DNA of 64,000 nucleotides from Hoeflea prorocentri (GTDB lineage Bacteria; Pseudomonadota; Alphaproteobacteria; Rhizobiales; Rhizobiaceae): the NCBI RefSeq assembly GCF_027944115.1, contig NZ_JAPJZI010000001.1:4216001-4280000 (forward strand). The letters run 5' to 3'. The notes under the pieces are model-generated. The model saw only the letters and a program-made list of their open reading frames with translations, was not told the origin of the DNA and made no database searches. The translations under genes were made by a program, and so were the position numbers. Position 1 is the first letter of the stretch, and each line of letters opens with the position of its first letter. This document shows, in pieces, positions 1 to 4,304 of the stretch.

Positions 1-309
1 GACCGCGAGCATGGCCAGCGGGCCGATCCAGACCATCTGCGTATCGCGCATCAGCATTGCGCCGATGATGCCGGCGAAGGCCATTGTGGCGGGAAGTGAA
101 AGATCGATCCCGCCGCCGACAAATACGAAGCACAGGCCAATGGCCAGTGTGCCCAGTATGGATGCCTGGACCAATACGTTGATGAGATTGTTAACACGGA
201 AGAACGAGGGCGCGTTCACATACATGACGGCAAGCAGGCCGATCACAAGCAGGCCGATGACGAGGTTTCCCAGATACTGGGAATGTCGCCCGGCCAGAAG
301 GGCAGTCAT
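1..309 (-). CDS. Ribose-type ABC transporter permease, N-terminal part (cut by window start)
   Basis: The reverse strand encodes about 103 residues opening MTALLAGRHSQYLGNLVIGL and containing the stretch FVGGGIDLSLPATMAFAG. This matches the N-terminal half of BPD_transp_2 (RbsC/AraH type) sugar permeases, in which a G-x-D-L-S motif follows the second membrane helix. Two hydrophobic segments are visible and the protein continues beyond the window. The start at 309 is supported by a purine-rich GAGGGGG ribosome binding site a few bases upstream. It lies 52 bp downstream of a small gene on the same strand, and further upstream is a regulator with a sugar-binding domain, so an operon for uptake of a sugar or polyol is likely. 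The substrate cannot be told. Confidence 0.85.
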   Translation of the reverse strand, partial: MTALLAGRHSQYLGNLVIGLLVIGLLAVMYVNAPSFFRVNNLINVLVQASILGTLAIGLCFVFVGGGIDLSLPATMAFAGIIGAMLMRDTQMVWIGPLAMLAV

Positions 310-361: not shown

Positions 362-565
362 CTATTTTGCGCCTTTCCGACCGGGTGCTTCGAGCTGCCT
401 TTGGCTGCGCGCGCTCCTATTGCGGTCAGGATCGAGCCCGTCCTGGATCACAACAAAGCCTTCGGGATCGTCGTTGTTGACGATATTTCCGGTGCGGTTG
501 ATGAACCTGTCTGGTGGCGCCGAAGCGTTCCAGCCGGCCTCAGCGGAAATGTCTTGATCTCTCAT
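362..565 (-). CDS. Small hypothetical protein (67 aa) preceding an ABC permease gene
   Basis: This short reading frame begins MRDQDISAEAGWNASAPPDR and is preceded by a good ribosome binding site (GAGGGAGCAG directly before the ATG). A longer version with start at 658 is possible but lacks such a site. The protein is hydrophilic, rich in Asp, Arg and Asn, with no signal peptide, membrane helix or motif I recognise. It ends 52 bp before the ribose-type permease on the same strand, so it probably sits in the same transcript. Function is unknown. The ribosome binding site and position support it being real, but it is short and could be spurious. Confidence 0.45.
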   Translation of the reverse strand: MRDQDISAEAGWNASAPPDRFINRTGNIVNNDDPEGFVVIQDGLDPDRNRSARSQRQLEAPGRKGAK

Positions 566-903
566 CTGCTCCCTCGCATTTGGGCTTTTTGTGAGTTTGT
601 TTATGACTTGCCCAAGTCTCTGCGCGCCTCGACCGAGCGGACTGCCCTGGGGGCGCAATTACCCGCTTTTCTCGATTTCCTCCCTATGCTCTCCCCGACC
701 GTTCCATGCTGTGCAGACCGTCTCGTGCATGAGGCGCAACTGGCTTGAAAAATACGCCCCGTCGGGGCGAAGAACGGCCAGTTCACTCATGCTGAAATTC
801 GGTATTCCCGTGCACCATTCCGTCGCCCAGAATTCGTCATCGGAACCCAAATTCAAACAAGATCAAAGAAGTTCATTTTGAACAATTGTTTGTTTACAGG
901 GGC
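566..903. other. Intergenic stretch between regulator and transporter operon
   Basis: This is 338 bp without a recognisable gene. It holds the 13-bp palindrome at 871-883 and an adjoining AACAATTGTT palindrome at 881-890. It probably also holds the promoter of the minus-strand transporter operon. A minus-strand open frame of about 65 codons (659-856, TTG start, containing the sequence MSELAVLRPDGAYFSSQ) runs through it. It lacks a clear ribosome binding site and resembles no family I know, so I do not call it a gene. Confidence 0.5.
871..883. promoter_or_regulatory. Candidate operator, GTTCATTTTGAAC (second copy at 2620-2632)
   Basis: GTTCA and TGAAC arms flank a TTT centre. The exact reverse complement recurs at 2620-2632 upstream of the winged-helix/SBP regulator. 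Two identical 13-bp near-palindromes bracketing one regulator gene suggest it binds here, upstream of the transporter genes, and at its own promoter. Binding is inferred. Confidence 0.5.
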
Positions 904-2580
904 TTACGACAACTGATCAGCGCGTTCCTGCGATCGTTGCAATGTCGTTGAGATCGACTGCTTGCCGCTGAGCATGTCGTGAATCTCTTCCCCAAGGATG
1001 GAAACCACCGAGGAAAAACTGGAAACAGGTGGACGTGGCCACAGTCTTATTTGTCCTCGCCTGGCCATCTGATCCACTGCGGTGATCATGGGCGACAATT
1101 GTTGTACGTCCGGATCAGATCCGACACTCAGGCGCGGCGTAACATGCCCGCCATGCTGCACAAGCAGCTTTATCACTTCCGGTGAAGATATCCATTCAAT
1201 CGCATTCCATGCGGTCCGAAGGCGGTTAGGAGCGATATTGCTTGGAATGCCGAACGCAAAGCCGCCAATGGGCGCCACACTGGACCGGGGCTGCCTGTCG
1301 CCTTCAATCGCACCCCTCGGATGGGGCAGATAATCAAGTTCCCGAGCCGCTGCAAAGCCATTTAACTGCGCCTCTCGGCTTGCCCATTCATAGGCAATAG
1401 CCACTTTGCCTTCACGCAGAAGATCCACCTGACCATCCCAACCCATGGAAAGAACGTCAGGCGCGGAAACGGCCAGCAAATCGATCATGAACCGAGCCGC
1501 CAGGTGACCGCGATCCGTATTGATAAGCGGCTTTAGGGCCTTGTTGCTAAGGCGGCTGGTTTGAAAGCCGCCAACCGACCGGTCAAGCTGAAACACAGGC
1601 TGTCCGAAATCCGCAAGGAACTGAATAAATGCCTGCCCCACCGGGCCACCGCGCGCGGCGGTCCATGACACCCCGTACTGTCCGATTGACGGACGGTGCA
1701 ATACACGCGCTGCCTCAAGAAGCTGGGCCGTTGTGTGCGGCGGCGGGATATTCAAATCCGCGAAGAGATCCTTGCGATAGAACAGCAATTGGGGATTGAT
1801 GAGAATGGGTATTCCGTACTGGTTGCCGGCGAAAACCGTGCCACGCCAAGCAGACGACACAAAGTCTGAGCTGTTGAGCTGACTGTCGCCAGCCACATCA
1901 TCCAGTGGGGCAAGCACTCCACGCTGCGCGAATTCGGCGATCATCGGCAAGTCGACCGCAACCACATCGTAACGGGATTGAGGCAACTCGCTGTTGTCCA
2001 GAATCTTCTGGCGAAGCGAATCGATGGAAGCTTCATGAAATCGGGCCTGACCGCCCATAAGATAGTTTAACTCCCGCCTCAAAGGCTTGCCGAAGGAATA
2101 GGCGGGATCTTCAACAACGAGAATTTCCAGGCCGTTGCCAAAACCAAGACTGTTGCTGGCTATCGGAGGCGCACCGATGAAATCGCGGCCTGCCGGCCTC
2201 CGGGACCGCCGGGAGCCGACCTTTGCCGTGCCGCTGATGGCGACTGCGGATTGGGTTGCCATCAACAATGATGTCATCTTGGCAATGAGCTTGGGGCTCG
2301 GGTGCACCGAAAAAGAGCGGCCCGACTTGGTCCGGGGCCGTAGGTCGATAAGGCCTTGATTGCGCATCTGCGCCACCCGGCGCGTGGCGGTTGTGTAAGG
2401 CACCTCAGCGGCCTGGGCCAAACTGGTGGGTGTCGTCAAATACCCCATGAGATGGCGCTTCATCAGGAAGAGCGACATGACCATAAGTGGATCCGAGATC
2501 GGTTCTTCAACCCAAAGATGTTTGAGGTTACGCAGACGTTCCAGCAACTCGATGGTCTGGATCAACTCCTCTTTGGTCAT
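904..2580 (-). CDS. Chimeric regulator: winged-helix DNA-binding domain fused to a sugar-ABC-type solute-binding-protein domain
   Basis: A 558-residue protein without a signal peptide. Residues about 35-110 form a MarR-like winged helix, with helices around TTPTSLAQAAEVPYTTATRR and a basic wing LRPRTKSGRSFSV. After a basic linker, residues about 150-530 resemble family-1 extracellular solute-binding proteins of sugar ABC transporters. Typical features are LEILVVEDPAYSFGKPLRRE, YDVVAVDLPMIAEFAQRGVLAPLDD, NQYGIPILINPQLLFYRKDLF and WNAIEWISSPEVIKLL. Such proteins are normally exported. Here the lack of a leader and the fused DNA-binding domain indicate a cytoplasmic one-component sensor whose ligand is probably the sugar taken up by the neighbouring transporter. 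LacI-type regulators are analogous, but they use a different binding-protein fold. The start is an ATG at 2580. Identical 13-bp palindromes lie 40 bp upstream of the start and just beyond the stop. The domain reading is firm; the ligand and regulon are inferred. Confidence 0.85.
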   Translation of the reverse strand: MTKEELIQTIELLERLRNLKHLWVEEPISDPLMVMSLFLMKRHLMGYLTTPTSLAQAAEVPYTTATRRVAQMRNQGLIDLRPRTKSGRSFSVHPSPKLIAKMTSLLMATQSAVAISGTAKVGSRRSRRPAGRDFIGAPPIASNSLGFGNGLEILVVEDPAYSFGKPLRRELNYLMGGQARFHEASIDSLRQKILDNSELPQSRYDVVAVDLPMIAEFAQRGVLAPLDDVAGDSQLNSSDFVSSAWRGTVFAGNQYGIPILINPQLLFYRKDLFADLNIPPPHTTAQLLEAARVLHRPSIGQYGVSWTAARGGPVGQAFIQFLADFGQPVFQLDRSVGGFQTSRLSNKALKPLINTDRGHLAARFMIDLLAVSAPDVLSMGWDGQVDLLREGKVAIAYEWASREAQLNGFAAARELDYLPHPRGAIEGDRQPRSSVAPIGGFAFGIPSNIAPNRLRTAWNAIEWISSPEVIKLLVQHGGHVTPRLSVGSDPDVQQLSPMITAVDQMARRGQIRLWPRPPVSSFSSVVSILGEEIHDMLSGKQSISTTLQRSQERADQLS

Positions 2581-2619: not shown

Positions 2620-2632
2620 GTTCAAAATGAAC
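2620..2632. promoter_or_regulatory. Candidate autoregulatory operator, GTTCAAAATGAAC
   Basis: This copy of the 13-bp near-palindrome lies 40 bp upstream of the regulator ATG. It sits inside a longer imperfect dyad, GAAAG-TTCAAAATGAA-CATTTTC. It lies in the divergent region shared with the solute-binding-protein gene at 2757, so it could affect both. Confidence 0.5.
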
Positions 2633-2690: not shown

Positions 2691-2708
2691 TTTGCAACCG
2701 GTTGCAAA
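2691..2708. promoter_or_regulatory. LacI-family-type operator overlapping a putative -35 box
   Basis: TTTGCAACCGGTTGCAAA is a perfect 18-bp palindrome with the central CG typical of LacI/GalR-family operators. It ends 48 bp before the ATG of the binding-protein gene at 2757. It overlaps a plausible -35 (TTGCAA, 2692-2697), which is followed after 17 bp by TTTAGT (2715-2720), consistent with repression. No LacI-family gene lies in the window, so the cognate regulator would be elsewhere. Confidence 0.6.
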
Positions 2709-2756: not shown

Positions 2757-4304
2757 ATGGCACGATCACCATGGACGAAAATGCTCGGCGCTGCTTTCGC
2801 GGTATGCTTCTACGGAAGCGCGCATGCCGCCGGAGGGGGCGGGGAGCTTGTTGTCGTCGCCAACCAGGAGCCGCAATCCATGCAGGCTCAGGTCACTTAC
2901 AAGGAGATCAACGGCGTTGGACTGCGCAATGTCATCGAAAACCTGACCCGGCTGGATCCGGCTACCAATGAAGTGCTGCCCATGCTCGCGTTGAGCTGGG
3001 AGCAGGTTGAACCGACATCCTGGCACTTCAAGCTGCGCGAAGGTGTGAAATTCCACGACGGCACCGACCTGGATGCCGAAGCTGCGGCCGTCAGCATCAA
3101 CTGGCTTTACAGCGATGAGAACAACTTCAGCATCCGCGAGATGATGGGTCCTCAGATAACGGCCGAGGCTGTTGATGACATGACCCTTGCCATTAACACC
3201 GAATCCCCAGACCCATTGCTTCCGAGGCGGATTTATCTGGCAGGCCTGACATCGGCCAAACAGATTCTGGAAAATCCGGCGGATCATGACGTCCATCCCA
3301 TCGGCACCGGCCCTTATATTTTCGACGAATGGAAACAAGGCCAGTACTGGACTGCAAAGGCCAATCCGGACTGGTGGGGCAACGACGCGGAAGATACCTA
3401 CGGGGATATCCACTTTGACAGCCTGCGTGTCATATGGAGACCGGAGCCAGCCGTCCGTTCGGCGATGGTGGAAAGCGGCGAGGCCCAGGTTGCGATGTTC
3501 CTGACCAAGGAGGAATGCGACCGTTTCAATGAGGCCAGCGGCGTTGATTGTATCGTAAAGGGATCCGACACATTCCTCAGCGTTCGCCTGGACTATCACG
3601 GCGCACAACCGGTTCTGGAGGACCTCAGGTTCCGCGAGGCGGTCTTCACCGGCATCGACTGGGAAGGAATCCGCATCAACCTGATGGGGCTGGGCGAGCC
3701 GCTGGCAGGCCAATTGCTGCCGTCGGCTGCAACCGGCTTCCATGATGGTATTTCCCAGTATGCGTATGACCCGGTCAAGGCCAAGGCTCTGATTGAAGAG
3801 CTGAAGGGCGAAGGTCAGGACATACCGACGATCCATATCGCGACGCGGCTTGGATCCACGCCAAGAAACGGCGAGATGATTGAAGCCATGGGCGCGATGC
3901 TGAACGGTATCGGGGTTCCAACGACAGTTGCCGTTGAAGAGCCCGGTGTCTTCAACCCGTGGGTGACCACCAAGCCTGATCCTGCCCGTTCGGGGATGTG
4001 GCTCCACCCTCAAGGCAATCCGCTCATGGACTATGCCGCTCAATTCAGCGCCCACTACCTTTGCGGCAGCATCATTTCGGTCTTCTGCGATCCGGACTTT
4101 GATGCCCGGGTTGCCGCGGCCGGAGCACTGGTCGGAGATGAACGTCACCAGGCCTTGCGCGAGCTCGTGAAGGAGGGTCATGACCGTTACATCATGGGCG
4201 CGGTCGGCCTTCTGCAGAGAGCTTATGGAGTTCCTGAAGGCTATGAGTGGGACTTCGGTCTCGATCACCGCATCCTTGCAGTGAACATGAAACCCAAAGA
4301 CTGA
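2757..4304 (+). CDS. ABC transporter substrate-binding protein, family 5 (peptide/opine/nickel type), orphan
   Basis: A 515-residue periplasmic binding protein of the SBP_bac_5 (DppA/OppA/NikA-like) family. A signal peptide with likely cleavage after AHA (about residue 24) is followed by family hallmarks. These are LVVVANQEPQSMQAQVTYKE, NLTRLDPATNEVLPMLALSW, WHFKLREGVKFHDGTDLDAE, HPIGTGPYIFDEWKQGQYW and a C-terminal ligand lobe. The start is preceded by AGGGAGG. It would capture a peptide or other small ligand for a Dpp-type permease. No permease or ATPase gene follows: a terminator comes directly after and the next feature is a tRNA on the other strand. It must therefore work with a transporter encoded elsewhere, or signal. 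A LacI-type palindrome upstream suggests carbohydrate or opine control. The ligand is unknown. Confidence 0.9.
   Translation: MARSPWTKMLGAAFAVCFYGSAHAAGGGGELVVVANQEPQSMQAQVTYKEINGVGLRNVIENLTRLDPATNEVLPMLALSWEQVEPTSWHFKLREGVKFHDGTDLDAEAAAVSINWLYSDENNFSIREMMGPQITAEAVDDMTLAINTESPDPLLPRRIYLAGLTSAKQILENPADHDVHPIGTGPYIFDEWKQGQYWTAKANPDWWGNDAEDTYGDIHFDSLRVIWRPEPAVRSAMVESGEAQVAMFLTKEECDRFNEASGVDCIVKGSDTFLSVRLDYHGAQPVLEDLRFREAVFTGIDWEGIRINLMGLGEPLAGQLLPSAATGFHDGISQYAYDPVKAKALIEELKGEGQDIPTIHIATRLGSTPRNGEMIEAMGAMLNGIGVPTTVAVEEPGVFNPWVTTKPDPARSGMWLHPQGNPLMDYAAQFSAHYLCGSIISVFCDPDFDARVAAAGALVGDERHQALRELVKEGHDRYIMGAVGLLQRAYGVPEGYEWDFGLDHRILAVNMKPKD

Follow-up and report, generated by a model that had tools for sequence, protein, structure and literature searches.

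A winged-helix protein with a family-1 solute-binding domain as a probable cytoplasmic regulator beside a ribose-type transporter in Hoeflea prorocentri

The window considered here is the whole stretch of 64,000 nucleotides that was analysed from the 5.04-Mb genome of Hoeflea prorocentri. Close to its start lies a gene on the minus strand, between two copies of a short palindrome, with transport genes to either side. The features of this region are, by position in the window:

1..309, minus strand: start of a ribose/arabinose-type permease gene (best NCBIfam matches, below cut-off)
365..565, minus strand: small open frame (67 aa) that precedes the permease gene, with a PhyH-like start
755..772, minus strand: terminator-like hairpin between the candidate operator at 871-883 and the 67-aa frame (consensus match only)
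871..883, no strand: candidate operator GTTCATTTTGAAC, located after the regulator gene and before the ribose-type transporter operon
904..2580, minus strand: wHTH-SBP_bac_1 regulator gene, an intact ATG open frame of 558 aa with near full-length relatives
913..2130, minus strand: family-1 solute-binding domain, residues 151-556 (Pfam, PDB sequence matches, model, Foldseek)
2149..2229, minus strand: disordered linker, residues 118-144 (pLDDT < 50)
2230..2295, minus strand: long helix, residues 96-117, a candidate dimerisation helix (AlphaFold2 model)
2281..2490, minus strand: winged-helix DNA-binding domain, residues ~31-100 (model secondary structure, weak MarR_2/TrmB matches)
2620..2632, no strand: candidate operator GTTCAAAATGAAC, 39 bp before the start codon of the regulator gene
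2691..2708, no strand: perfect 18-bp palindrome TTTGCAACCGGTTGCAAA, 48 bp before the gene of the family-5 solute-binding protein; candidate for a different operator (inositol genes)
2757..4304, plus strand: family-5 solute-binding protein gene, divergent from the regulator (open frame, Pfam/NCBIfam)

The regulator and the ribose-type transporter genes lie on the same strand with the transporter downstream, and the ribose-type permease that the earlier note had placed beside the regulator is found at 1-309, as judged by those NCBIfam matches below cut-off. Beyond the window this permease gene is followed by genes for an ATPase, a permease, an RbsB-like protein, a TIM-barrel isomerase-like protein, and Opp/Dpp-type permeases and ATPases. 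The 67-aa frame has no Pfam match at E<=0.01, and its start is similar to the N-terminal end of a PhyH dioxygenase whose gene lies at another place in the genome (E=2.9e-6, 59% over 29 residues). The 67-aa frame and the PhyH dioxygenase gene are each found downstream of the same palindrome.

The C-terminal part of the protein is readily named. SBP_bac_1 (PF01547) matches residues 202-469 with E=3e-23 and 83.7 bits against a Pfam cut-off of 26, the same profile is matched in 17 of 17 family members at E<=0.1, and a phmmer search of the PDB returned mostly sugar-binding proteins, the best being 5iai (1.5e-17 over residues 203-556). NCBIfam gave the 558-aa protein weak partial matches only, to thiaminase, MalE and GanS models. 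For the N-terminal part, MarR_2 matches residues 42-88 of the whole protein below the Pfam threshold (E=0.005) and scores 20.1 bits against the domain alone, short of the 27-bit cut-off for the MarR family; across the family the domain is matched by MarR_2 in 31 of 37 members and by TrmB in 25 of 37 (E<=0.1). A PDB sequence search with this domain, made in order to name its winged-helix family, gave weak matches only, with a best E of 0.015.

The AlphaFold2 model of the full-length protein, built on 53 aligned sequences, has a mean pLDDT of 83.3 and a pTM of 0.72, and is divided into a helix (3-22), a winged helix (31-94, with helices at 31-45, 51-57 and 62-74 and strands at 78-82 and 90-94), a long helix (96-117), a disordered stretch (118-144) and a solute-binding fold from residue 151. 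The best PDB match of this model by Foldseek is 5iai, a sugar ABC binding protein, with a target-normalised TM of 0.89, and the 50 matches listed are family-1 binding proteins or entries presumed to be tagged with maltose-binding protein. Folding the N-terminal domain alone without an alignment gave a pLDDT of 49, and that model was set aside. The earlier note had read the gene as a MarR-like domain joined to a complete family-1 solute-binding domain, and had proposed a domain search and a structure prediction for both halves; with these now run, its reading is borne out, the winged helix being only weakly MarR_2-like. Joined genes, a frameshift or a sequencing error are excluded as the origin of the fusion by the near full-length relatives in other genomes.

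These relatives are carried by many marine and soil bacteria. The earlier note had allowed that related open frames may exist in databases, and they do, in genomes of the same family, across a scan of species and on plasmids. Within the family a near full-length match at E<=1e-30 was found in 16 of 199 genomes (own included); within the genus 4 of 8 match at E<=1e-40, with one ortholog at 55% identity (in genome G201); and among 398 genomes of the phylum seven match at E<=1e-40, six of them near full length (own included) and the seventh (G128) without the winged-helix part. The scan of one genome per species (84,980 species) confirmed 478 of 590 stretches, a count that may include plain binding proteins, and the best 80 of these 478 are 38-43% identical and by title belong to Alphaproteobacteria, except for one bin labelled Ectothiorhodospiraceae. 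Amongst plasmids, a search of 72,556 records gave 34 matches at E<=1e-30; the 25 matches listed comprise 22 annotated as 'extracellular solute-binding protein', one as a periplasmic component and two with no listed feature. Two other matches in the same genome as the window were discarded: L007, a 550-aa frame, has by eye the look of an ordinary exported binding protein, Tat-like leader included, and L005 covers the winged-helix part only. Near the latter, weak winged-helix-like match, a frame of 198 aa that contains an internal repeat lies beside a frame that by eye resembles a reverse transcriptase (L011:3543-5304).

As public annotation has it, the protein would be an ordinary exported ABC solute-binding protein with an odd N-terminal extension, and both the labels on 23 of the 25 plasmid matches listed and the C-terminal fold, which by Foldseek is that of periplasmic proteins, agree with this. 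However, an export-like hydrophobic segment (a 19-residue window with mean hydropathy > 1.6) is found in none of the 53 members as aligned; because relatives had been cut at the start of the match, the hydropathy test was repeated with up to 70 upstream codons added, and it again found none in the 52 relatives, nor in the four annotated full-length proteins. The signal peptide, Tat or lipoprotein signal of an exported substrate-binding protein is thus missing by hydropathy, and the N-terminus is instead modelled as a winged helix, which stays closer to the query than the remaining protein does (identity to the 52 relatives of the 53-row alignment is 52% in the winged-helix part, 43% in the remainder and 13% over residues 101-150). 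Moreover, the adjoining transporter already owns an RbsB-type binding protein. An exported protein with an extension is therefore rejected on hydropathy and the structure model, and is considered very unlikely; the lack of an export signal, as it was first described for this gene, holds throughout the family members tested.

Several known systems resemble the protein in part. The LacI family, in which a LacI-type HTH is joined to a type-I periplasmic-type sensor, exerts one-component control of sugar transport, and the likeness lies in such control by a periplasmic-type sensor, whereas here the parts are a winged helix and SBP_bac_1; neither a LacI HTH nor a type-I periplasmic-binding sensor was matched up to E=1 in Pfam, so that the proposed distinctness from LacI is upheld. 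TrmB of archaea controls an ABC transporter in response to sugar, and its winged helix is weakly similar to that of the family (the 25 of 37 members above), but its sugar-binding domain is not of the solute-binding-protein fold. LysR-type regulators likewise consist of an HTH and a type-2 periplasmic-binding-like effector domain, which is smaller than SBP_bac_1, but the 558-aa protein has no LysR match in Pfam. GntR-type HTH and solute-binding-protein architectures are suspected to be listed for Firmicutes. MocR regulators also combine a winged helix with a large recruited domain, although their sensor has an aminotransferase fold, unlike SBP_bac_1. A search of the literature with narrow terms found no characterised wHTH-SBP_bac_1 regulator.

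The nearest working model is provided by SgrR of E. coli and DsvR of Vibrio cholerae, which carry an HTH domain and a family-5 solute-binding domain in one regulator (PMC13060122). The N-terminal HTH fused to a periplasmic-type solute-binding domain is common to all three, but the sensor of SgrR and DsvR is SBP_bac_5 and not SBP_bac_1, and regulons and sites differ. No SgrR or SBP_bac_5 model matched the 558-aa protein up to E=1 in Pfam or NCBIfam, and by domain content it stands outside that family. A putative box of 11 bp lies immediately upstream of the DsvR gene (PMC13060122).

It is apparent that gene order around the regulator is strikingly constant among the relatives from the species scan (best 80 of 478). 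As to the survey that had been suggested, of this architecture beside sugar ABC genes, a divergent RbsB-type binding-protein gene lies directly next to the regulator in 70 of these 80 loci, as called by a gene parser. Neighbours were annotated with locus L046 as the example and one member per cluster, permeases and ATPase being identified through their cluster and the annotated Marinovum and Phaeobacter records. On the strand opposite the regulator L046 encodes the RbsB-type protein, an SDR, two permeases, an ATPase, a 6-phosphogluconate-dehydrogenase-like protein and ThuA, and on the regulator's strand an SDR, an M24-family protein, E1 and E2 parts of a 2-oxoacid dehydrogenase and an aldehyde dehydrogenase. 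This catabolic cluster around the regulator is highly conserved in L029-L037 and L045-L124 (e.g. L046:2618-20466), with an FMN-dependent dehydrogenase replacing the 2-oxoacid dehydrogenase set in L051 and some others. More remote members, on plasmids of Shinella and Agrobacterium, adjoin sugar ABC and isomerase-like genes, with Gfo/Idh too in Agrobacterium. Exceptions are L050 and L060, where the transporter lies upstream on the same strand, and L038-L043, where the surroundings differ from the common arrangement.

The palindrome that flanks the regulator, as GTTCATTTTGAAC at 871-883 and, in reverse complement, at 2620-2632, has the form GTTCA-N3-TGAAC. The two exact copies within the 64 kb compare with 0.27 expected, two being reached in 2 of 100 shuffles, and no further match with up to one mismatch occurs elsewhere in the 64 kb. 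Across the genome GTTCA-WWW-TGAAC occurs at five places, two flanking the regulator, two between PhyH-dioxygenase and SDR genes at 2.709 Mb, 1.5 Mb from the regulator, and one inside a frame that by eye resembles a glycosyltransferase. In G201 the same 13-mer lies 20 bp before the ortholog's called ATG and 65 bp before the aligned region, and that regulator adjoins the SDR ortholog (74% identical), the PhyH ortholog (87%) being part of the same cluster. A copy with one mismatch precedes the SDR gene, and between the SDR and PhyH genes lie genes for an inositol 2-dehydrogenase (IolG model 378.8 bits, cut-off 355) and an aldo/keto reductase. This linkage in G201, together with the palindrome shared in trans in the window genome, is the strongest single argument for the putative operator.

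The genome-wide count of the palindrome was rejected as proof, since 5 of 7 genomes of the genus have one or two exact matches, including three (G164, G199 and G202) with no homologue at E<=1e-40. From position and co-occurrence GTTCA-N3-TGAAC is nonetheless the probable operator of the regulator. The distance of 39 bp between the site at 2620-2632 and the start codon suggests autoregulation, whilst the hairpin (772-755) and the 67-aa frame (565-365) that come after the site at 871-883 leave room for control of the transporter arm by activation at a distance or by attenuation. A scan found no sigma-70-like promoter at either site.

Relatives carry a site of the same design. In the 70 loci with a divergent RbsB-type gene (of the best 80 of 478), ATCCA-N3-TGGAT with at most one mismatch occurs in the regulator/transporter intergenic region of 58, where 0.84 of 70 would be expected from letter shuffles; the loci are kin to one another and hence are not independent trials. 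The best match has no mismatch in 34 loci, one in 24, two in 10, three in one and four in one, whereas amongst 1400 size-matched random segments of the same loci 0.07% had none and 1.8% had one (1.9% with at most one). Sites with up to two mismatches form 44 pairs exactly 21 bp apart, the next commonest spacings having 6 each. The half-site of the window, GTTCA, and that of the family, ATCCA, have the common form RTYCA with identical spacing. Three of the 10 left-out loci (L049, L056 and L110) also have RTYCA-N3-TGRAY pairs, with at most one mismatch, 21 bp apart; the other seven showed none over the stretch searched, a result that long, wrongly called starts may have influenced.

Within the same family, the searched parts of stretches L029-L037 have a site of this form with no mismatch at 8 of 10 homologue genes, and the Shinella member, at 30% identity, shows GTCCACTTTGAAC, which begins 42 bp before the start of the gene. 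No such site lies upstream at L029, at the second gene of L032 or at L038-L043 (0 of 6, about 31% identical), nor, with starts as placed, at L050, L060, L064, L067, L072, L080 and L104; the Agrobacterium plasmid member has no site nearby and the Phaeobacter plasmid member has sites with one mismatch only. In L033, L034, L036 and L153 an extra copy of the palindrome lies 34 bp after the second one (e.g. GTTCAATCTGAAC, ATTCAATTTGAAC), and in L045 and L046 a weaker extra copy is found about 82-85 bp further on.

The intergenic region upstream of the regulator also holds the 18-bp palindrome. Its 16-bp core TTGCAACCGGTTGCAA occurs exactly at four places in the genome (2691-2708 of the window, and 2301261, 2343949 and 4210596 on contig C1). 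Of the three outside the window, one precedes the Opp/Dpp-type permease genes, one adjoins iolD and a Gfo/Idh gene, and one separates the gene of a rhizopine-type binding protein from that of an RpiR-type regulator. This distribution suggests that the family-5 binding protein and the Opp/Dpp-type permeases probably belong to an inositol regulon, without control by the wHTH-SBP protein being required. Two different palindromes in one region imply that more than one regulator probably acts there. It might then be asked whether GTTCA-N3-TGAAC belongs to another regulator, with the wHTH-SBP protein acting elsewhere, as the second palindrome, shared with inositol genes and 58 bp away, would allow, and as would the other regulator genes that lie within the stretch in single records, e.g. 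Marinovum. This is unlikely: in the 58 of 70 loci a site of unchanged 5-3-5 geometry accompanies the gene family, and no regulator is found among the recurrent neighbour clusters that were annotated (0, 4-12 and 14 by one example each, 1 and 3 through L009).

Taken on sequence, the protein is likely to be a cytoplasmic one-component regulator that senses a sugar or cyclitol and controls itself, the ribose-type transporter and the distant PhyH/SDR pair. A dimer of the winged helix would bind the 13-bp palindrome RTYCA-N3-TGRAY, and the family-1 domain would close on a sugar, a cyclitol or a derived compound imported by the adjoining transporter; a cyclitol-like ligand is suggested by the inositol regulon and by IolG in the G201 neighbourhood. 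Closure would then alter DNA binding, relieving or enabling it, at the regulator's own gene, at the adjacent ribose-type ABC operon and, in the window genome, at the PhyH-dioxygenase/SDR pair. For its own gene autorepression is favoured as the direction, whilst on the transporter arm the protein would on balance be a repressor, activation being a possible but less expected role.

It could also be that the solute-binding domain senses a protein partner, such as the transporter ATPase, or only dimerises, with no small molecule involved; a parallel is known in MalK, which restrains MalT. Strong conservation of the domain, which within the 53-row alignment is more uniform (0.82-0.83) than the winged helix (0.75), fits such a protein-protein role as well. 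This is rather unlikely, however, as the entire two-lobed fold is retained in the model and by Foldseek, and as the DsvR authors expect a sugar-like signal for their regulator (PMC13060122). The earlier proposal of an intracellular one-component switch beside a ribose-type transporter draws good support from architecture, conserved neighbourhood and conserved palindrome, but its uniqueness was overstated, SgrR and DsvR being precedents and LysR-type sensors sharing a type-2 periplasmic-binding-like fold.

More tentatively, and at not quite an even chance, the relatives may form a widespread alphaproteobacterial class of cytoplasmic sugar or cyclitol sensors, in which a family-1 binding protein was recruited as the effector domain, the operator consists of tandem palindromes two helical turns apart, and the same solute would be read on both sides of the membrane by two periplasmic-binding folds, type I in the RbsB-like protein and type II in the regulator. 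As the plasmid records among the matches listed label these genes as extracellular transport proteins, models of the bacteria would add a second binding protein and miss a regulator. If confirmed, the winged helix and sugar-binding protein would provide a modular scaffold for biosensors, and the family would add a new sensor fold to one-component sugar regulation, with a predicted operator and targets ready.
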